NCBI RefSeq assembly: GCF_012863495.1
Contig: NZ_JAAVJL010000001.1
Coordinates: 2,724,001 to 2,788,000, forward strand
DNA from: Pseudanabaena yagii GIHE-NHR1
GTDB taxonomy: Bacteria; Cyanobacteriota; Cyanobacteriia; Pseudanabaenales; Pseudanabaenaceae
DNA length: 64,000 nucleotides
Direction: 5' to 3'
How positions within the stretch are numbered: the first letter of the stretch is position 1; each line of letters opens with the position of its first letter. A program made the translations under genes and the position numbers. The notes under the pieces are model-generated. The model was not told the DNA's origin and searched no databases. It saw only the letters and a list, made by a program, of their open reading frames with translations. Below are positions 2,058-17,873 of the stretch, piece after piece.

Positions 2058-4950
2058 TGCCAATCAGAATGAAGGCAGCCCAGAAATAAGGATGTTGAAA
2101 TTCAGGTTGCTTTGATTGCAGTAGGCTGAGCTGGGCTTCACGCAAAGAATTAATGATGTTAGTGCCCTTGTGTAACTGCGTATAAAAACTACCCATCAGT
2201 GATTGTGTCCCCTGATCGCTCACCGTCCAAAGCGAGGCGATCGCTGCCCTTGCACCTGTACGTTGAATTTGGTAGCCAAAACCAAGAATCTCTTCGCCAC
2301 TGCCGACCACACCACCGAGGGCAGTCTGACAAGCGCTAAGAACTACTAATTGCGTATTCGGTAACTTCCATTCACGTAACTCCCGTAAATTAAGGCGATC
2401 GCCATTGCCCATCAGCACAAAGGAGTCTTCAGGTGTCCCACTCACAAAAGCGGCATGGGTTGCTAAATGGATAATGTTGTATTCTCCAAATTGGGCAACG
2501 GTGGCATTGCGATTGAAAAAGGTATCGAATAATTTGGTTGTATTAGGGAAAGTCTCCGCAATTTTGTTAATTTCTTTGCCTGCGAAGGGTAATCCTGTAA
2601 ATGAGAACTGCTCACTACCAATCGAGAATTTGAAATCACCCTGAGTAAAGGCAGCTGCGATCGCTTTTAGTGGGAGTTTAACAGTAGTTTGCAAGTCTAA
2701 AAATCCAGAGGCAGTCAAGTAATTAAAGCGATATTTCTCAATGAGCCATTGCTTCCCATCATAGAGTGCTGCAAGGGGAATATAACGCATTTGTCCATCT
2801 GGAGCATAGAGAAGTAGCTCAATATTAGCTGCTTTGAGATCAGCCTCAATTGGTTTAATTAGATATTTATAAAGTTGGGCTGAGGATTCCTTAACATCAC
2901 TAGAACTAGAGTCTTGCAAGTCAGACCGAAAGCTTTGCAACAACTTAGTAAAGTCTTGTTGTTGAATGCTAATGGAACGGAGAATTGGCGCAGATTTGGC
3001 AGGGAGAAGCACTAAGAACAGTCGGTCTTCAAATAGTAGTGGATAGAACATTGCTGCTCGATCACCAAATTTCTGCACATTTGCTAATAGAGATTTTGAA
3101 CTAGCTAGATTTGCTTCCTGTTGAGATGAAATCTGTTGGATTTGAGTAGCTAAGGGTGAGCCATTGATCAATGATTTGAGATCACTATTGATTACTGCTT
3201 GCTCAGGAGCAAAAAGTGTAATTCCCGACGAAGTGCGCTCATTTCCTTTCACATCACGTAGATAGTCTTGCAGCTCTTGCACTTTTAAGAGATCGAGGAT
3301 TTGAATTGCCTCATTAATACGCCCCTGCTGTAGGAGGAGTTTGGCAAGATTGCGATAAGTATAGGAAACACTTTGTTTGTAAGCAGAACGGTCTTCACGA
3401 GGCAGCATTCTGATCGATTGACGAATCGATTCGCGTACATTTACTGATTGCTTGAGAAAAGCGATCGCACTATCGATTTGTTTCTGTTGTGCTAATAAAT
3501 CACCAATATTCGCGAGTATCACTGATTCTGTACTAGGATCGCGCACTTCTCTGGCAATATTTAAAGCTTTTTGATAAGCATTGATGGCTTCCAGTTGCTT
3601 ACTATTGTTGGCATAGGCACGACCAAGATTACTCAAGGCAACACCAATGCCTGCGCGATCGCCAACCTTCTCGTATTGACTGAGAGCCTGCTGATGAAAT
3701 GAAATTGCCTGTTCTGTCTGTCCTAACCGAGTGTAGGTACTACCAATATTGTCTAGGGTGATGCCAATTCCTAAATCATTACCAATATCTTGATAGATGT
3801 TTCTTGCCTTTTGAAAGAAAGCGATCGCCTCTTTATATTTGCCACTGTTGCTATAGAGTTGTGCCAGATTATTGAGATTATTTGCCTGTCCTGCTTTGAC
3901 GGTTACATCATTGTTAGCAGTGTCACCCACAGTAGCTCGCACCGACAGCCCACGACTAGTGAGAGTTGGATTGCTATTGTCCTCACCAAGAACATCATGG
4001 AGTAGTTCAATTTCTGTTTTTTTTAATCCCGCTACATCATTTGTTGTGAGTTTAAAGTAGATCTTGGTTGCTTGATCGGCAAAATCTAAGGCACGACGCT
4101 TTTGTCCCAAACTAAAATATAGAGCGCTTAAATTATTGAGAATCGCCGCCTCATCGCCACGATAACAACAGAGTGTGCGAACTAGGGCGAGAGCCTGCTC
4201 ATAGGACTCTAAAGCCTGCTGGTATTGGGTTTGGTTAGCATAGATTACGCCAATATTATTTAAGGTTTGTACCCTGCCGATGATATCGTTGCGCTCAATG
4301 GCAATCGGTAGCATTTGCTGATAACTTGCCAATGCACGATCGTATTGGGCAGATTTAAAATAAATCGAAGCCATGCGTGCTAGTGTCACGCTCTCACTGG
4401 TTTGTAAGGATTCGCGATCGCCTTTTTTCGCTTTTAAGCGATCGCGAAAAATATCAAGCGCATGTTGATAGATGGGTAAGGCTTGGTCATATTGGCGTTG
4501 CTTGTCATGGACATCGGCAATATATTGCAAGGTGTAGCCAATATCCACAGGATCGCCGTCGGGAGACTTTGCAATTTCCTTGGCAATTTTCAAGGCTTGC
4601 TGGAAATAGGGCATCGCCTTGTCATACTGACCCGTCGTTAAATAGACATCTCCTAAAACGTTTAACGTGTCACGCTCTCCCCCTGTGGCATTCCATTTGC
4701 GAAATAGTTCTAGTGCTTTTTGCAGATCCGCGATCGCTCCTTGTGGGTCGGCTTTTTGTAAGCGATCATATCCCGATTGTTTGAGGTAAACCGCCTCCGT
4801 AATTTGCTGTTTTCGCAGTTCATCAGAACTATTAGAGCTTTGGGCGATCGCCTTTAACCCAAGTAATTCTAATTTTGGTGTTACTGCAATAGGCATACCC
4901 ACAGCCGTTAGCAATATTCCTAAAACCGCAAAATTACGAACTAAGCGCAT
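2047..4950 (-). CDS. Secreted TPR-CHAT domain protein
   Basis: 967 aa from the ATG at 4950. That start is chosen over the longer frame to 4995 because GGAGGT lies 5 bp upstream and the product then opens with a signal peptide (MRLVRNFAVLGILLTAVG). The middle holds about ten tetratricopeptide repeats, recognisable as YDKAMPYFQQALKIAKE-type helices. The C-terminal third is a CHAT domain, a caspase-like protease fold, with the expected His (HLATHAAF, about residue 829) and Cys (LSACQTALGG, about 872) dyad. Such proteins are common in filamentous cyanobacteria; the substrate is unknown. It is convergent with gun4, and the TIGR03643 gene lies upstream on the same strand. Confidence 0.9.
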   Translation of the reverse strand: MRLVRNFAVLGILLTAVGMPIAVTPKLELLGLKAIAQSSNSSDELRKQQITEAVYLKQSGYDRLQKADPQGAIADLQKALELFRKWNATGGERDTLNVLGDVYLTTGQYDKAMPYFQQALKIAKEIAKSPDGDPVDIGYTLQYIADVHDKQRQYDQALPIYQHALDIFRDRLKAKKGDRESLQTSESVTLARMASIYFKSAQYDRALASYQQMLPIAIERNDIIGRVQTLNNIGVIYANQTQYQQALESYEQALALVRTLCCYRGDEAAILNNLSALYFSLGQKRRALDFADQATKIYFKLTTNDVAGLKKTEIELLHDVLGEDNSNPTLTSRGLSVRATVGDTANNDVTVKAGQANNLNNLAQLYSNSGKYKEAIAFFQKARNIYQDIGNDLGIGITLDNIGSTYTRLGQTEQAISFHQQALSQYEKVGDRAGIGVALSNLGRAYANNSKQLEAINAYQKALNIAREVRDPSTESVILANIGDLLAQQKQIDSAIAFLKQSVNVRESIRQSIRMLPREDRSAYKQSVSYTYRNLAKLLLQQGRINEAIQILDLLKVQELQDYLRDVKGNERTSSGITLFAPEQAVINSDLKSLINGSPLATQIQQISSQQEANLASSKSLLANVQKFGDRAAMFYPLLFEDRLFLVLLPAKSAPILRSISIQQQDFTKLLQSFRSDLQDSSSSDVKESSAQLYKYLIKPIEADLKAANIELLLYAPDGQMRYIPLAALYDGKQWLIEKYRFNYLTASGFLDLQTTVKLPLKAIAAAFTQGDFKFSIGSEQFSFTGLPFAGKEINKIAETFPNTTKLFDTFFNRNATVAQFGEYNIIHLATHAAFVSGTPEDSFVLMGNGDRLNLRELREWKLPNTQLVVLSACQTALGGVVGSGEEILGFGYQIQRTGARAAIASLWTVSDQGTQSLMGSFYTQLHKGTNIINSLREAQLSLLQSKQPEFQHPYFWAAFILIGNGN

Positions 4951-10702: not shown

Positions 10703-12127
10703 ATGACATCTGACAAGCAAAATTTTGGACTGATTGGTTTGGCGGTGATGGGTGAAAACCTTGCTCTAAACATTGAGCGCAATGGTTTTTCGATGAGTGT
10801 TTATAACCGCAGCCGCGATAAAACCGACAAGTTTCTTGCCACTCGTGCGGCTGGGAAAAATTTCAAAGGCACATTTACGATCGCTGATTTTGTTGCATCG
10901 TTAGAGCGTCCCCGCAAAATGTTGATCATGGTGAAGGCAGGCGCACCTGTGGATGCCGTAATCCAAGAACTAATTCCATTTCTAGATGAAGGCGACATCA
11001 TCATTGATGGTGGTAACTCGCTCTACAACGACACCGATCGCCGCACGGTGGAGCTAGAGAAGATTAATTTGAAATTCATCGGTATGGGTGTGAGTGGTGG
11101 TGAAGAAGGCGCACTCAATGGACCGAGCATGATGCCCGGTGGACAAAAATCTGCCTACGCCGAGATCGAGCCAATTGTGACGAAAATCGCAGCTCAAGTT
11201 GATGATGGTGCTTGTGTGACTTACATCGGTAAGGGTAGCGCAGGGCATTATGTGAAGATGGTGCATAACGGCATTGAGTATGGCGATATGCAGTTAATTG
11301 CTGAAGCCTATGATTTGCTCAGTAATGGGTTAGGACTATCTGCTAGTGAGTTACATGAAACCTTTACCGCATGGCGTAGTTCCGAACTCGATTCTTATTT
11401 GATTGATATTACGGCGGATATTTTCACTAAGGCGGATGATTTAACTGGGGATGCACTCGTCAATAAAATTCTCGATGCAGCAGGTCAAAAGGGAACAGGC
11501 AAATGGACAGTGCAAAGTGCTTTTGATTTAGGTGTACCGATCCCCACAATGATCGCGGCGGTGACAGCACGGGTAATTTCTTCTTATAAGGAAGAGCGGG
11601 TGGCTGCCTCGAAGGTACTGATCAGCTCGACCTCTGGTAAATACCAAGGCGATCGCCAAGAGTTTATTGATGCTGTGCGGGATGCGCTGTACTGTTCTAA
11701 AATTTGTTCCTATGCTCAAGGCATGGCGCTTTTGAGTGCAGCATCTCGTGACTTTGGTTATGACTTAAATCTGGGTGAAATTGCCCGTATCTGGAAAGGC
11801 GGTTGCATCATTCGTGCGGCTTTCCTTGACAAGATTAAGCTAGCTTTTCAGCGCAATCCTCAATTGCCTAACCTGTTAGTCGATCCCGATTTCAAACAAA
11901 CCATCCTCACCAAAGAGGTAGCATGGCGCAAAGTGGTTGTGGCGGCGGCTCAGTTGGGTATTCCGATTCCCGCATTTAGTGCGTCTCTCGATTATTTTGA
12001 TAGCTACCGTCGCGATCGCCTACCTCAAAACTTGACACAGGCACAACGCGATTACTTTGGCGCACATACCTACGAGCGCACCGACAAGCCCAGAGGTGAG
12101 TTTTTTCACACCGAATGGATGAAGTAA
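10703..12127 (+). CDS. gnd: 6-phosphogluconate dehydrogenase, decarboxylating
   Basis: 474 aa from the ATG at 10703, preferred over the ATG at 10685 because GGAGAGG sits between the two at the right distance and the product then begins just before the dinucleotide fold. It oxidises 6-phosphogluconate to ribulose 5-phosphate, CO2 and NADPH. The NADP site is [12 protein letters not shown]. The substrate and catalytic region shows [17 protein letters not shown] and [19 protein letters not shown], and the helical C-terminal domain is complete. Neither zwf nor opcA is adjacent. In cyanobacteria this pathway supplies NADPH in the dark. Confidence 0.96.
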
Positions 12128-12140
12128 AATTTACTTGAAT

Positions 12141-12171
12141 ATAAAAAAGGGCGCAAAGCGCCCTTTTTTAT
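12141..12171. terminator. Hairpin terminator after gnd
   Basis: Perfect 14-bp arms (12141-12154, 12158-12171) close on AAA (GGGCGC-AAA-GCGCCC) with A6 and T6 flanks. The minus-strand stop of the HAD gene (12168-12170) is inside the right arm, so the structure can serve both convergent genes. Confidence 0.88.
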
Positions 12172-12635
12172 GCTCTAAATGCACTTAGGTACTGGGTAAG
12201 AATTTTAGCTGAATTATCGTCAAACCCAATATAAGGATCAGTTACAACAACTGGTGTGTTTGGTGCGTAATGTTCAGGAATATCGTCAACTGCTACCCAA
12301 CTGGAGCCTTCTGCTTGATTTTGTCTCAGATATTCCAAAACCTCCTGATGACGGAGAAACTGGAAATTGTGGATAATCGTAGTTTCTAAGAGAGGAGTTG
12401 CACCAACTATCCGCGCTGTAATATCTGACGAAAAAAGTGGTGGGATTACTTCAAAGGGAAAAATTTCTCGCCACGAAGAGCTTATGACCACTCTTGCTTC
12501 AGTAAATTTCCGTAGAACATTTTCAAATTTCTCAAGACATTCAGGATCAAATTTCATGTAATCCTCTTGTGGAACTGGCTTGTCAAATTTTTTCTCAGGG
12601 ACAAGTACCCCATCAATATCTAAGAAAATCCACAT
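12168..12635 (-). CDS. HAD-like phosphatase domain protein
   Basis: 155 aa. Motif I is at the very N-terminus (MWIFLDIDGVLVPE, with the nucleophile-type DxD), motif II is the Ser in VVISSSW, and a motif IV-like acidic pair is in WVAVDDIP. This is a compact HAD fold with no obvious large cap, resembling small HAD proteins that are often annotated only at superfamily level. The substrate is not predictable. It begins a stretch to about 14,880 in which I find no HIP1 octamer. Confidence 0.8.
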   Translation of the reverse strand: MWIFLDIDGVLVPEKKFDKPVPQEDYMKFDPECLEKFENVLRKFTEARVVISSSWREIFPFEVIPPLFSSDITARIVGATPLLETTIIHNFQFLRHQEVLEYLRQNQAEGSSWVAVDDIPEHYAPNTPVVVTDPYIGFDDNSAKILTQYLSAFRA

Positions 12636-12893
12636 TGATATTTGATAATAGTTGTATCAATATTCATCATATTGGTATTATCAGAATAAGTTAAGAAGCT
12701 AAAAATTTTGATCGCTCATACTCAGATCCCTAATACTCTCCTCAGACAAATCATCTTAATTGATAGTCATGTAAGTGATAGTTTTTCGGTGATTGCTGAG
12801 AGTACTGTTCATTAAACATGTCTTCATTAACACTAGCGTCGATACAGGTGGATTGCAGAGTATATAAGCTATGAGTATTGTTGGAAACCTGCG

Positions 12894-13397
12894 ATGATCA
12901 ATATCAAATCAAGGCAAGAGCTATTAAGTCGAGCTTACGTTCAAGCAGTAGCATCAGTCGCAGGATTTGATACTTACTCATTTGGTGTAGACAGTGACAG
13001 TGTAGACATTGGCATCGCAAGCAAAGCCTCAAGTGGTACATATAAATCCCCCAGATTAGAGCTACAACTCAAAGCTCCTTTTAAACGCAATTTTGTTGGG
13101 ACAAATGTTTTAAGCTACTCAATTAGCAAGAAAAACTATGACGACTTGAGGGCTAACGTTTATGTCCCCAGATTGCTAGTAGTTCTTATGGTTGCAGATG
13201 ATGAGTCTGAGTGGTTACATCAATCAGAAGAACAGCTTATCCTTAGACATTGCGCTTTTTGGGCTTCACTTTATGGTTTGCCAGATTTACCAATAGGTCA
13301 AGATGATAAAAGTATAAGATTTTCTAGGGGGAACGTCTTTAATGTAGAGTCGCTAAGAGCTTTAATGGCAATGATTGCGGATGGAGGCACTCCATGA
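12894..13397 (+). CDS. DUF4365 protein, PD-(D/E)xK-like
   Basis: 167 aa. The sequence matches the DUF4365 pattern: an N-terminal helix (RQELLSRAYVQAVASVAGF), GVDSDSVDIGI with candidate metal-binding Asp33 and Asp38, then LELQLKA carrying a QxK pair at 58-60, and the later YDDLRANVYVPRLLVVLMV. A D...QxK arrangement is typical of PD-(D/E)xK nuclease folds of the Mrr/Holliday-resolvase type, so nuclease activity is plausible but not shown. The stop overlaps the start of the next gene (ATGA at 13394), indicating translational coupling. The region lacks HIP1 and looks more AT-rich than its surroundings, consistent with transfer. Confidence 0.75.
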   Translation: MINIKSRQELLSRAYVQAVASVAGFDTYSFGVDSDSVDIGIASKASSGTYKSPRLELQLKAPFKRNFVGTNVLSYSISKKNYDDLRANVYVPRLLVVLMVADDESEWLHQSEEQLILRHCAFWASLYGLPDLPIGQDDKSIRFSRGNVFNVESLRALMAMIADGGTP

Positions 13398-14536
13398 AAG
13401 TGAGCATTAGAGATTCTGAGGTCTTAAAAAGAATAAACCCTCTAGACGTGTCAACCTATTTAGCGTCTAAATCTTGGCAACTTGTTAATGAAATCCCTGA
13501 CAGAGCCAGTATATGGACTTACACCGATAGGACTAATAACAATGAATTTGAAATACTTCTACCATTAAATCCACAATTTGAAGACTTTTCAACTCGCATC
13601 AGTGAGATCATTTCCACACTTGAAATTGTTGAATCTCAAACACAGACAACTATCCTAGAAAACTTACAAAATGTTTTCTCAAACATAATTAATTTACGTC
13701 TAACCGATAGAGACTTTTATAATGGTACTATCCCTATAAACAAAGGTGTTGAACTGCATCAAAACGCAAAAAATATGATGCTTTCTGCTGCGTGTGCTTC
13801 TGTTGAATCAAAAGCTTTTTTCGAGAAAAATAAACCTTCTCAAGCAACAGAATATTTAAAAAAAGTAAGGCTTGGGCAACCCAAAATTGGCAGCTATATA
13901 TTAACTATAATATCACCCCTCCCCAAGCCTAGAATATCAACAATACAAGACCCTGAAGAAAATCATATTTCGTTAGATTTCTCTAATAGAGTTGTTACAA
14001 AGCTTCGTGATTCTCTTGAGTTTGTGAAGACTTATATAGAATATGTAATCGAAGAAAGACAGCTTGTTCAAGTTTCTGATGAAATCATAAACAATGGAAT
14101 AACTGCCAACCTCTGCGAAGCATTGACAGGTATAAACTATAACGGCAATAATCAAGGACTAGAAATAAATTTCAATTGGTCTCCAGTTGTTAACACCTCA
14201 TCATCGCAAATTCCAATAAAATTTGAGCCTCCAGTCTTAGAGCTTGTTAAATCTCTAGGAAAACAGCTAAGAACGTACTTACGCCCAGACTACGAACTAA
14301 CTGGCGATGTCGTTAAACTAGAAAGAAAAATCACTGACGAAATAGGCAAGGTAACAATTGAGACGACAATTGATGATATTAAAAGAAAAGTGCAAGTTTC
14401 TCTTAATGATGTTTGGTATCTCCACGCAGCTAGAGCCAATGCCAATAAGCACTTTGTTACTTGTCGTGGGCAACTACGCAGAGATGGACAGTCCTACATC
14501 CTAGACCATGTAACCAGCTTCTCGGTTAGAGATTAA
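13394..14536 (+). CDS. Unrecognised partner of the DUF4365 protein
   Basis: 380 aa, coupled by a 4-bp overlap to the DUF4365 gene. The N-terminus (INPLDVSTYLASKSWQLV, then ASIWTY and EILLPLNPQFEDFSTRISEI) has the look of a conserved domain that I cannot name. A central helical part contains AKNMMLSAACASVESKAFF. The C-terminus, from about residue 300, is beta-rich (VVKLERKITDEIGKVTIETT, KVQVSLNDVWYLHAARANAN, TCRGQLRRDG). There is no P-loop, no membrane segment and no clear catalytic motif. Constant pairing with a nuclease-like protein would suggest a sensor or specificity subunit; that is inference. The coding sequence contains no HIP1 site. Confidence 0.7.
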   Translation: MKVSIRDSEVLKRINPLDVSTYLASKSWQLVNEIPDRASIWTYTDRTNNNEFEILLPLNPQFEDFSTRISEIISTLEIVESQTQTTILENLQNVFSNIINLRLTDRDFYNGTIPINKGVELHQNAKNMMLSAACASVESKAFFEKNKPSQATEYLKKVRLGQPKIGSYILTIISPLPKPRISTIQDPEENHISLDFSNRVVTKLRDSLEFVKTYIEYVIEERQLVQVSDEIINNGITANLCEALTGINYNGNNQGLEINFNWSPVVNTSSSQIPIKFEPPVLELVKSLGKQLRTYLRPDYELTGDVVKLERKITDEIGKVTIETTIDDIKRKVQVSLNDVWYLHAARANANKHFVTCRGQLRRDGQSYILDHVTSFSVRD

Positions 14537-14562
14537 ATTACCCAAAAGCAGAGATTACCCCA

Positions 14563-14865
14563 ATGGCTGAAAGATGGACAGATGAAAGGTTAGATCGATT
14601 TGCCGACAAAGTAGATCGGATCGCTGACAAGATAGACCAGCAAGGCGAACAAATAGGCAGACTCATAGAGGCTTTGTACCTTGAATTGCCAAACATCAAA
14701 GCTGAGATAAACAGTGTTAGGGAAGAAGCCAGAGAGCAACGTGAAACCCTCCATGCTGAATTGATAGAAATCAAGGAAATTACTAGACAGCAAGCCATTG
14801 TTGCTCAGACTCAAGCCGAAAGCATCAGACTGATGATTGAAATGTTAAATCGGAAACAGGCTTAG
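14563..14865 (+). CDS. Small coiled-coil protein
   Basis: 100 aa, almost wholly heptad-patterned helix: RLDRFADKVDRIADKIDQQ, then EINSVREEAREQRETLHAEL and QTQAESIRLMIEMLNRKQA. There is no membrane segment or catalytic motif. Proteins of this kind are common in cyanobacteria beside other genes and have no known role. It starts 27 bp after the DUF4365 partner gene on the same strand and might be co-transcribed with it. An attachment to the neighbouring module is possible but unproven. Confidence 0.65.
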   Translation: MAERWTDERLDRFADKVDRIADKIDQQGEQIGRLIEALYLELPNIKAEINSVREEAREQRETLHAELIEIKEITRQQAIVAQTQAESIRLMIEMLNRKQA

Positions 14866-14912
14866 TAGTATCAAAACAATGGCGATCGCTACTATCTTTT
14901 TACCTACAAATC

Positions 14913-16058
14913 ATGATTAATGCGCCAACGGACAAAATATTAGCGATCGGCTTGATGAGTGGCACATCGGTGGATGGGATTGATGCTGCGCTTGTAGAAA
15001 TTTGCGATCGCCAAGGTATCCTCAGCACTAACCTAATCGCAGGGCATACCTATGAATATGAAGCAGATTTAAGAAAAGAAATCCTTGCTGTTTGTGCAGG
15101 TGAGCCGCGATCGCTACAGCAAATATGTGAACTCGATGATCGCATTGCTGAGAGTTTTGCTAAAGCAGCTTTAGCGATTACGGAGAAAAGCGATCGCCAG
15201 CCAAATTTAATTGGATCTCACGGTCAAACCGTATTTCATCGTCCACCCGCAGGTCAAAAGATGGGATATACGGTGCAACTGGGGCGAGGTGCAGTCATTG
15301 CAGAATTGACAGGAATTAAGACGGTCAGTGATTTTCGGGTTGCGGATATTGAAGTGGGAGGGCAAGGTGCGCCGCTAGTGCCGATGGTAGATGCTTTGTT
15401 GTTATCGCACCCTACTAAATATCGGGCTTGTCAAAATATTGGCGGGATTAGCAATGTCACCTATTTGCCACCCAATGCAGGAGCAATTCCAGAGCAAATA
15501 TTTGGTTTTGATAATGGGGCGGGAAATGTCCTGATGGATATGGCAACTCAAAAATTATTTGGTCAACCTTTTGATCGAGATGGGGCGATCGCACGACAAG
15601 GTAAAGCTAATTTAGAGCTAATCAATCAATGGCTAGAGCAAGAATTTTTTCTCATTCCTCCGCCAAAATCAACGGGGCGCGAGTTATTCAGTCCAGATTA
15701 TTTAAAAGCGCGTTTAGAGGAATGCCAAGATTTAAGTAATTACGATATTCTCGCCACGTTGACGGAATTTACGGCTAGGGCGATCTCCAAAAGCTATCGT
15801 GATTTTCTGCCTGTATTGCCTGAAGAGGTTTTAGTCGGCGGTGGTGGTGGTCGCAATGGTTACTTGATGGAGCGCTTACAGGATTTGCTCAAACCTGCGA
15901 TCGTGAAACGTACTGATGACTTTGGTTTGAGTGGCGATAGTAAAGAGGCGATCGCCTTTGCGGTCTTAGGATATTTACGAATTAAAGAGCGCTATGGCAA
16001 TTTACCCAGTGTCACAGGAGCCAAGCGATCGGTATTACTAGGCAGAATCTTTGCATAA
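14913..16058 (+). CDS. anmK: Anhydro-N-acetylmuramic acid kinase
   Basis: 381 aa. It phosphorylates and hydrolyses 1,6-anhydroMurNAc to MurNAc 6-phosphate in peptidoglycan recycling. The ATP-binding P-loop-like GLMSGTSVDGIDAAL lies near the N-terminus. The actin-like fold is supported by GSHGQTVFHRP, DFRVADIEVGGQGAPLVP, NIGGISNVTYLP, DNGAGNVLMD and the C-terminal LVGGGGGRNGYLM. Full length for the family. The last three codons lie inside a hairpin arm that is copied, inverted, beyond rpsB's stop. Confidence 0.95.
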   Translation: MINAPTDKILAIGLMSGTSVDGIDAALVEICDRQGILSTNLIAGHTYEYEADLRKEILAVCAGEPRSLQQICELDDRIAESFAKAALAITEKSDRQPNLIGSHGQTVFHRPPAGQKMGYTVQLGRGAVIAELTGIKTVSDFRVADIEVGGQGAPLVPMVDALLLSHPTKYRACQNIGGISNVTYLPPNAGAIPEQIFGFDNGAGNVLMDMATQKLFGQPFDRDGAIARQGKANLELINQWLEQEFFLIPPPKSTGRELFSPDYLKARLEECQDLSNYDILATLTEFTARAISKSYRDFLPVLPEEVLVGGGGGRNGYLMERLQDLLKPAIVKRTDDFGLSGDSKEAIAFAVLGYLRIKERYGNLPSVTGAKRSVLLGRIFA

Positions 16059-16098
16059 AAAAGGGGGCGCTTAGCGCCCCCTTTTTTATGCAAAGATT
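16046..16098. terminator. Hairpin containing the anmK gene end
   Basis: Arms 16046-16070 and 16074-16098 are 25-bp perfect complements around TTA (GGGGGCGC-TTA-GCGCCCCC). The left arm includes the final anmK codons ATC-TTT-GCA-TAA. The right arm repeats those bases in inverted form immediately after the rpsB stop (16098-16100). A6 and T6 tracts make it a plausible bidirectional terminator. Confidence 0.9.
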
Positions 16099-16877
16099 TA
16101 TGCTTCTGCTTCTTCTTCGTCGCCAGTGATGATTTCATCATCAGCATAGGCTTCTACTTCTTCAGCAGAGATTTCATATTCGATGTCTTCAATATCGCCA
16201 TGACGACCTTCGTAGATCGCATCGGCAAGTTTACCGACAATCAACTTGATCGAGCGAATTGCGTCATCATTGGCAGGAATACCGATGTCAACGCTATCGG
16301 GATCGCAGTTGGTGTCAAGTAAAGACACGATGGGAATACGCAGCTTTTGACATTCTTGAACCGCGTTGTATTCGCGCTTGTGGTCAACGATGATCACGAT
16401 GTCGGGTGGCTTACGCATCAACTTGATACCACCGAGATACTTGCGGAGCTTTTCCATTTCGCGACGGAGGGTAGATGCTTCCTTTTTAGGTAGGCGATCT
16501 AATGCACCACTTTCATCGCGACGTTCGAGATCCTTGAGACGATCGACACGGGTTTTGATCGTTGTCCAGTTGGTGAGCATTCCACCCAACCAGCGTTGGT
16601 TGATGTAGTAGCTACCACAACGAGCAGCTTCTTGAGCAATCAGACCAGCAGCTTGACGCTTGGTTCCGACAAATAATACTTTCTTGCCTTGTTCGGAAGC
16701 TTGACGCAAATAAGCATAGGCTTCTTCGAGGTACTGTGCGGTTTGCACAAGGTCAATGATGTGAACGCCATTACGCTCAGTGAAGATGTAAGGCTCCATC
16801 TTGGGGTTCCAGCGACGGGTTTGATGCCCGAAGTGAACTCCCGACTCTAGCAATTGGGCTAGGGTTACGACTCCCAT
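16098..16877 (-). CDS. rpsB: 30S ribosomal protein S2
   Basis: 259 aa. It opens with [19 protein letters not shown], then [12 protein letters not shown] and [12 protein letters not shown], which are hallmark S2 segments. The acidic C-terminal extension ([21 protein letters not shown] region) is longer than in E. coli and is seen in cyanobacteria. GGAG precedes the ATG. Usually tsf follows rpsB; here the next gene downstream is anmK in the opposite direction, so tsf must lie elsewhere. A terminator-like hairpin is in its leader. Confidence 0.96.
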
Positions 16878-16968
16878 TTAAGTTTTCTCCTTGTGTTCGG
16901 GTTTATCCTTGCGCCTGAGATGGAATTTGATGATTTAAAAAATTTTGACTTTGCAAAATTTTAAAAAC

Positions 16969-17002
16969 AAAAAACACCCGAAACCTCAAGCGTGTGTTTT
17001 TT
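16969..17002 (-). promoter_or_regulatory. Terminator-like hairpin in rpsB leader
   Basis: Read on the minus strand, AAAAAACAC (17002-16994) pairs with GTGTTTTTT (16977-16969) and is followed by G then five T. It lies about 90 bp upstream of the rpsB start codon and downstream of any promoter near 17,050. It could attenuate rpsB transcription, perhaps autogenously, or be a leftover terminator. Function is inferred from position only. Confidence 0.4.
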
Positions 17003-17174
17003 AACAGCTTGTCTAGGATAACGCATATGCGTCTCAATAGCAAAAAGCGATCGCTAATTCTGGGGTAGCAGTACATATTGATGAGTAAGGTCAAGACTGC
17101 GCGATCGCCTCTTGGTATTGATATATAGTGGTAAATATGGCGATCGCCGAATCAAAGGGAAATTAAGGATAACT

Positions 17175-17873
17175 ATGTCAGGACATATCCTACTTGTGGA
17201 TGATGAACCAGGTCTCAGAGAAGCTGTGCAAGCCTATCTCGAAGACAGTGGTTTTGCGGTGCAGGTTGCTAACAACGCAAGGGATGCGTGGCAACTGCTA
17301 GAGCAAACTACACCAGATTTGGTAATTTCGGACATCATGATGCCGCAGGTAAGTGGGTATGAGTTTCTGAAGCAAATGCGTGAGGATGTTAGATTTCTAA
17401 ACCTACCCGTCGTATTTTTGACCGCTAAGGGCATGACCAAGGATCGCATCGAAGGCTATAACGCTGGTTGTGATGCTTACCTATCGAAACCCTTTGACCC
17501 TGATGAGCTAGTGGCGATCGCTGAGAATTTAATTGCCCGTCGTGCTATGCAAGCTGTCACCGCCAATAGCAACACCTCGGAAATCACAGATCTTGCTGGA
17601 CAACTGGCGGAAATCAAGGCTCTTCTCAAACAAAAGCCTGCTATTAATGTCACGCCGCCACCAATTAAAATTGAATTTACGCCACGAGAACAAAGCGTAT
17701 TAGAACTTGTGGTTGAAGGCTTAATGAATAAAGAAATTGCTAAACGTCTTGGTACGACTATTCGCAATGTTGAGAAATATGTCAGCCGTTTATTTAGCAA
17801 AACAGGTACAAGCAGCCGCACTGAATTAGTCCGCTATGCTCTGCAACATGGTTTGATTGACTCCTATTCATAG
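17175..17873 (+). CDS. rre1: Response regulator with LuxR-type DNA-binding domain
   Basis: 232 aa from the ATG at 17175 (MSGHILLVDDEPG), preceded by AAGGATAACT; the frame opens earlier at 17112 but that part is not receiver-like. The receiver domain covers 1-120 with the acidic pocket D9/D10, the phospho-acceptor Asp53 in VISDIMMP and the conserved Lys in LSKPFDP. A GerE/LuxR helix-turn-helix follows (about 165-225: FTPREQSVLELVVEGLMNKEIAKRL). The overall layout matches cyanobacterial Rre1, the relative of plastid Ycf29, a stress-responsive regulator. The gene name rests on remembered similarity. Confidence 0.8.
   Translation: MSGHILLVDDEPGLREAVQAYLEDSGFAVQVANNARDAWQLLEQTTPDLVISDIMMPQVSGYEFLKQMREDVRFLNLPVVFLTAKGMTKDRIEGYNAGCDAYLSKPFDPDELVAIAENLIARRAMQAVTANSNTSEITDLAGQLAEIKALLKQKPAINVTPPPIKIEFTPREQSVLELVVEGLMNKEIAKRLGTTIRNVEKYVSRLFSKTGTSSRTELVRYALQHGLIDSYS

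Follow-up and report, generated by a model that had tools for sequence, protein, structure and literature searches.

What are the two overlapping genes at 12894–14536, and do they serve defence? The positions are those of the window, by which we mean the whole 64,000-nucleotide stretch of Pseudanabaena yagii GIHE-NHR1 that was analysed (NZ_JAAVJL010000001.1, positions 2,724,001 to 2,788,000). Gene A (12894–13397) encodes 167 amino acids and gene B (13394–14536) encodes 380. The open reading frame list has A, B and a coiled-coil gene of 100 amino acids (14563–14865) consecutively, all on the plus strand. A preliminary description took A and B for a new and recently acquired nuclease module, coupled over 4 bp and a good defence candidate. 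The coupling is seen directly in the sequence as an ATGA at 13394–13397 on the plus strand, in which the stop codon of A overlaps the start codon of B.

Little in the immediate surroundings answers the question. By eye, no methyltransferase gene was recognised among the open reading frames at 11000–17500, and no further defence gene beside A–B among those of the window. The promoter and terminator scans did no better than on shuffled sequences. The evidence comes instead from the two proteins, from their pairing elsewhere and from the places where the pair is found.

Gene A matches the Pfam family PF14280 (DUF4365) over residues 10–160 with an E-value of 3.3e-16 and 60 bits, against a curated cut-off of 24.3. 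The residues singled out at the outset, D33, D38, Q58 and K60, are invariant across 16 A homologues. In a 65-row alignment, from which L051, L060, L072, L077, L082, L085, L109 and L119 were left out, D33 and K60 are kept in 64 rows each, and D38 and Q58 in all 65. The conservation whose lack would have told against the preliminary description is thus found. Two published DUF4365 nucleases give a reference, TmuRE with the active residues Q62/K64 according to PMC10810196 and NbaSPARDA with D41/Q60/K62 according to PMC12205087. D38, Q58 and K60 of A correspond to these by sequence pattern rather than by structural alignment. A sequence search of A against solved structures found nothing. By family, A is a DUF4365 (DREN-type) PD-(D/E)xK nuclease, its activity being predicted.

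For gene B no Pfam family, those of Argonaute included, scores above its cut-off, and a sequence search against solved structures gave nothing credible. The full-length AlphaFold2 model, built on an 83-row alignment that leaves out L082, L109, L125 and L126, has a pLDDT of 92.2. Its leading structural matches fall on residues 295–380 (14276–14533, plus strand), with SilF at Z 10.3 (74 residues, 2.1 Å), PriB at Z 8.8, SSB at Z 8.7 and RPA at Z 8.6. No Foldseek match of the model reached E 0.001. As modelled, the C-terminus of B is an OB-fold. Such folds bind RNA, sugars and proteins too; this one probably touches nucleic acid.

Residues 1–294, modelled separately at a pLDDT of 91.8, gave weak matches only in the fold search, at best E 0.15 by Foldseek and Z 6.1 by VIA-align. 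The model divides them into an N-terminal alpha/beta domain (residues 1–95; 13394–13678, plus strand) and a middle part (residues 96–294; 13679–14275, plus strand), each with no clear fold match. The middle part carries G235, N239 and C241, which are invariant in the 83 rows of long-form B. In many cyanobacteria B measures some 180 amino acids: the OB-fold follows the N-terminal domain directly, and the roughly 200 residues in between are missing. These short forms are still preceded by A with the same overlap, so the middle part is a removable cassette, and the N-terminal domain is present in both forms.

Smaller variants also occur. At L203, L207, L212 and L214 the B frame after A has just 70–101 amino acids, little beyond the N-terminal domain, and may be a minimal form or decay. 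An OB-like domain as in B is fused to DUF2442 elsewhere (L043:1294-1803, L044:1031-1291, L041). In L044 a DUF4160 gene stands directly before the fusion, where the domain seems to work in a different small pair of genes.

Is the pairing of A and B fixed? Searching the genomes of GTDB species with a profile of B relatives gave 171 places, and the best 80 of the 171, from many phyla, were kept; the pattern of this genome scan was drawn from the middle domain of B, so the sample consists of long forms outside the cyanobacteria. Three of the 80 loci have the contig start too near B to judge. Among the 77 testable ones from these best 80, an intact A lies directly upstream of B in 67, a damaged or partial A in 8 and none detectable in 2 (L099, L123). 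In sum, 75 of 77 have A or a damaged A upstream, and the rare co-occurrence that would have refuted the preliminary description is not seen. The overlap is 4 bp in 59 of the 67 intact cases and 1 bp in 3.

The reverse direction gives the same picture. DUF4365 matches occur in 41 of 292 cyanobacterial genomes, and 30 such loci were fetched. In sixteen of them the DUF4365 gene is a near relative of this A, and each of the 16 has B, or at least its N-terminal part, adjacent; the remaining 14 encode different DUF4365 proteins and have no B. In 58 related genomes A is found in 11 and B in 12, both standing side by side in 10. Weak A and B matches lie on separate contigs in G418, and what matched in G390 is another gene (L041, of DUF2442 type by its likeness to L043). 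The pairing of A and B is fixed in both directions.

Some exceptions deserve mention on their own. In two viral contigs (L125, L126) B stands behind a different gene. A is damaged or frameshifted with B left open in 8 of the 77 testable loci (L092, L102, L103, L108, L117 and others), perhaps through assembly error or through selection against A. A DNA-level search of E. coli with one Pseudomonas homologue returned no match.

The unit ends with B. The coiled-coil gene does follow B by 26 bp, as had been noted approximately, but it lies outside the unit, since relatives without the pair have it at this site too. As a third component it was rejected because 11 fetched loci that have no A–B there carry it immediately before anmK (L134, L135, L138, L140, L141, L143, L145, L148, L149, L150, L153). 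L159 has a partial match to it, in L160 it is found close to fragments of anmK and gnd, and its protein has weak Pfam matches only. The family has a match in 20 of the 26 genus genomes, with several copies in some, repeatedly just upstream of anmK. The HAD_SAK_2 gene on the other side (12168–12635, minus strand; identified by Pfam and in the relatives' loci) was rejected likewise, as it belongs to the backbone between gnd and anmK where A–B is absent (L136, L139, L144, L146).

When did the pair arrive? Positions 11501–12687 align with 306–1492 of L136, from the relative G346, at 97.1%, and 14926–15300 with its 1505–1879 at 94.4%. The 2,238 bp in between (12688–14925), with A, B and the coiled-coil gene, are replaced there by 12 bp, which may reflect gain or loss. 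Four of the 26 genus members (L136, L139, L144, L146), all close relatives, lack the segment and have gnd, HAD and anmK side by side. Another relative, G402, has A, B, the coiled-coil gene and anmK in the same order. The DNA identity to it is 77% for A–B with the coiled-coil gene, 86% for gnd and 79% for anmK. The A–B unit thus looks about as old at the site as its neighbour, which tells against its having entered this lineage very recently.

Recent acquisition had been proposed from a stretch free of the HIP1 octamer. The octamer is indeed absent from 12020 to 14881, but the gap is ordinary and no sign of acquisition. Two longer gaps, of 3,261 and 3,071 bp, lie in the same window, and when its 95 HIP1 sites are placed at random, 75% of 5,000 trials contain one or more gaps of such length. 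Moreover, the gap also spans the HAD gene, a gene that relatives without A–B also have, flanked by gnd and anmK. The argument from HIP1 fails, and the acquisition need not be recent.

The boundary of HAD and anmK is a variable site in the genus, with cargo that differs by species (12688–14925 here; L138, L140, L143, L161, L162). At several of these loci a copy of the anmK 5′ end of about 33 codons is left upstream.

Nor is the module new. The PADLOC models PDC-M02A and PDC-M02B are matched by A (best 7.7e-52) and B (PDLC04303, best 4.9e-154), respectively, as adjacent genes in the right order. With such strong matches of both proteins, the pair belongs to the catalogued candidate PDC-M02. A 2026 paper (PMC12988326) describes the PDCs as putative candidates that came out of a guilt-by-embedding study, most of them awaiting validation. 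In the literature searched, no paper names PDC-M02 and no anti-phage experiment was found. By model matches, then, the pair is a widespread and catalogued putative defence candidate.

The genomic context of the homologues supports a defensive role. The scan of immediate neighbours covered 146 of 149, those at L062:2903-9271, L090:5114-9103 and L116:5571-9371 being left out for their length. Five of the 146 are HsdS (Methylase_S) and four have an HsdR N-terminal domain. A type I restriction-modification gene adjoins the pair in 7 of the 80 loci (L048, L058, L070, L073, L081, L082, L124), and in L081 and L124 HsdS precedes the pair and HsdR follows it. These loci are scattered over several separate clades of the B tree. 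The approximately 940 more distant neighbours hold about six further HsdS or HsdR frames in loci of the same kind (by cluster membership, partly confirmed by Pfam), and the type I count is compared internally with these distant neighbours rather than with matched random genes. L112 was rejected as a type I locus, its neighbour being DNA polymerase I. Since most other immediate neighbours are ordinary genes, the link to defence rests on a minority of the loci.

A few of the loci are peculiar in themselves. At L058 a 99-amino-acid copy of the HsdR N-terminus (2856–3155) lies upstream of A and the full hsdR downstream of B, as if an insertion had duplicated the start of hsdR. At L070 a DUF1016/YhcG nuclease gene (11320–12414) stands between B and hsdR as a second embedded gene in the type I operon. 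At L123 (8333–11137) B has no A and is preceded by genes for a C5 cytosine methyltransferase and a Vsr nuclease.

Mobile elements provide the second setting. A first viral scan with B alone as query found nothing, while 14 viral contigs carry both genes. In 6 of the 14 (L225, L230, L234, L127, L132, L233) a CI-type repressor, assigned by PHROGs, lies directly upstream on the same strand, and in L226 and L232 a repressor is upstream likewise as judged by eye. The pair lies between a DNA methyltransferase/ParB gene and the terminase in L129 and among virion genes in L227 and L229. Relatives occur in 31 plasmid records. The expectation of defence surroundings is thus borne out by the type I operons and the prophage repressor loci and not by the neighbourhood at large, which is mostly ordinary.

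We lean towards the reading that A–B is a two-protein immune unit, in which B senses infection and A is the nuclease. The pairing, the conserved residues, the PADLOC matches, the OB-fold of B, the restriction-modification and prophage contexts, the occurrence on plasmids, and the presence and absence of the pair between close relatives at one site argue for it. Against it stand the minority of loci that have such contexts, the lack of a recognised defence gene beside the pair here, the wide binding range of OB-folds, and the few B genes that have no A or follow a different gene. The overlapping stop and start codons would yield matched amounts of A and B. A, which we assume docks on the N-terminal domain of B, would be held quiet in a complex with B until an infection signal reaches B. 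The sensing would fall to the OB-fold and, in the long forms, to the middle cassette as well. The signal may be phage or plasmid DNA in single-stranded or some other abnormal form, or alternatively a restriction enzyme encoded next door being put out of action. Released A would then cut phage DNA, host DNA or both, so that the infection or the infected cell is stopped. The analysis itself shows the family, the conserved motif, the fixed pairing, the fold of the C-terminus of B and the defence-type contexts; complex formation, ligand, trigger, cutting and outcome are what we infer.

The two recurring slots each hint at a trigger. The type I operons and the repressor loci suggest that some copies of A–B respond to disturbed restriction or disturbed lysogeny. 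A bolder and distinctly tentative proposal, which we hold to be improbable as a whole, is that of a distinct class of two-gene immune nucleases. Its core would be DUF4365, the N-terminal domain of B and the OB-fold, with the middle sensor cassette optional. It would serve as a guard in type I operons, in the place of PrrC, and as lysogen defence in the place of rexAB, firing when host or prophage control is disturbed.

The pair could instead be a toxin–antitoxin system, with A a toxic nuclease, B its neutraliser and the pair kept because its loss kills, so that phage defence is secondary or absent. The short overlapping operon and its occurrence on plasmids and prophages are in keeping with this, and A is damaged with B open in 8 of the 77 testable loci, as if a lone A were a liability. 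However, B was what the loci were collected by, which biases this excess of broken A, and part of the breaks may stem from misassembly. B also exceeds A in size and complexity, having invariant residues of its own and an OB-fold, and it is more typically defence cargo that sits inside type I operons and behind a prophage repressor. We regard this explanation as unlikely.

Restriction that depends on DNA ends or modification is more doubtful still. Here B would read a feature of foreign DNA, such as modified bases or single-stranded ends, and A would cut it with the host spared. The PD-(D/E)xK fold family and an OB-fold of the SSB/PriB/RPA type suit such an enzyme, as do the insertions among type I genes and the C5 methyltransferase and Vsr beside B in L123. 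Yet L123 has no A altogether, no methyltransferase is a fixed partner, and type I genes adjoin just 7 of the 80 loci. A role outside defence, as a module of DNA repair or mobile-element maintenance, is very unlikely: an OB-fold with a nuclease fits repair too and the vicinity of many copies holds no defence gene, but the presence is patchy (A in 11 of 58 related genomes), the prophage position is linked to the repressor, and two B lineages within one genus are divergent.

The immune unit of B as sensor and A as nuclease thus stays our preferred reading, and it can be set against known systems. From PDC-M02 we found no difference. To this known candidate family the present analysis adds the OB-fold, the middle cassette and the genomic contexts, which make the picture testable: the catalytic-type residues can be mutated, the OB-fold can be probed for nucleic acid, and the middle domain is one that some relatives naturally do without.

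RexAB and BstA, described in PMC8585504 as prophage defence genes in the slot directly downstream of cI, resemble the prophage A–B by position behind a repressor. Their protein families differ from A–B, however, and position alone does not show function. PrrC is a latent nuclease whose gene is embedded in the EcoprrI type IC restriction-modification operon (PMC3874165). It is like A–B by its position in the type I operons of some genomes, but its protein family differs from those of A–B, and no link of A–B to type I restriction-modification is seen in this window.

Closest in the nuclease itself is SPARDA, the short prokaryotic Argonaute with DUF4365/DREN-APAZ, which has the nuclease family and the D...QxK pattern in common with A. 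In SPARDA, the DUF4365 domain is fused to APAZ, whereas A is a free DUF4365 domain of 167 amino acids and has no APAZ. The adjacent gene there is a short Argonaute (MID-PIWI). B, for which Pfam gives nothing above cut-off, ends in the modelled OB-fold and has no clear fold match in the rest. A–B would add a second mode of control for the DUF4365 nucleases, one without Argonaute.
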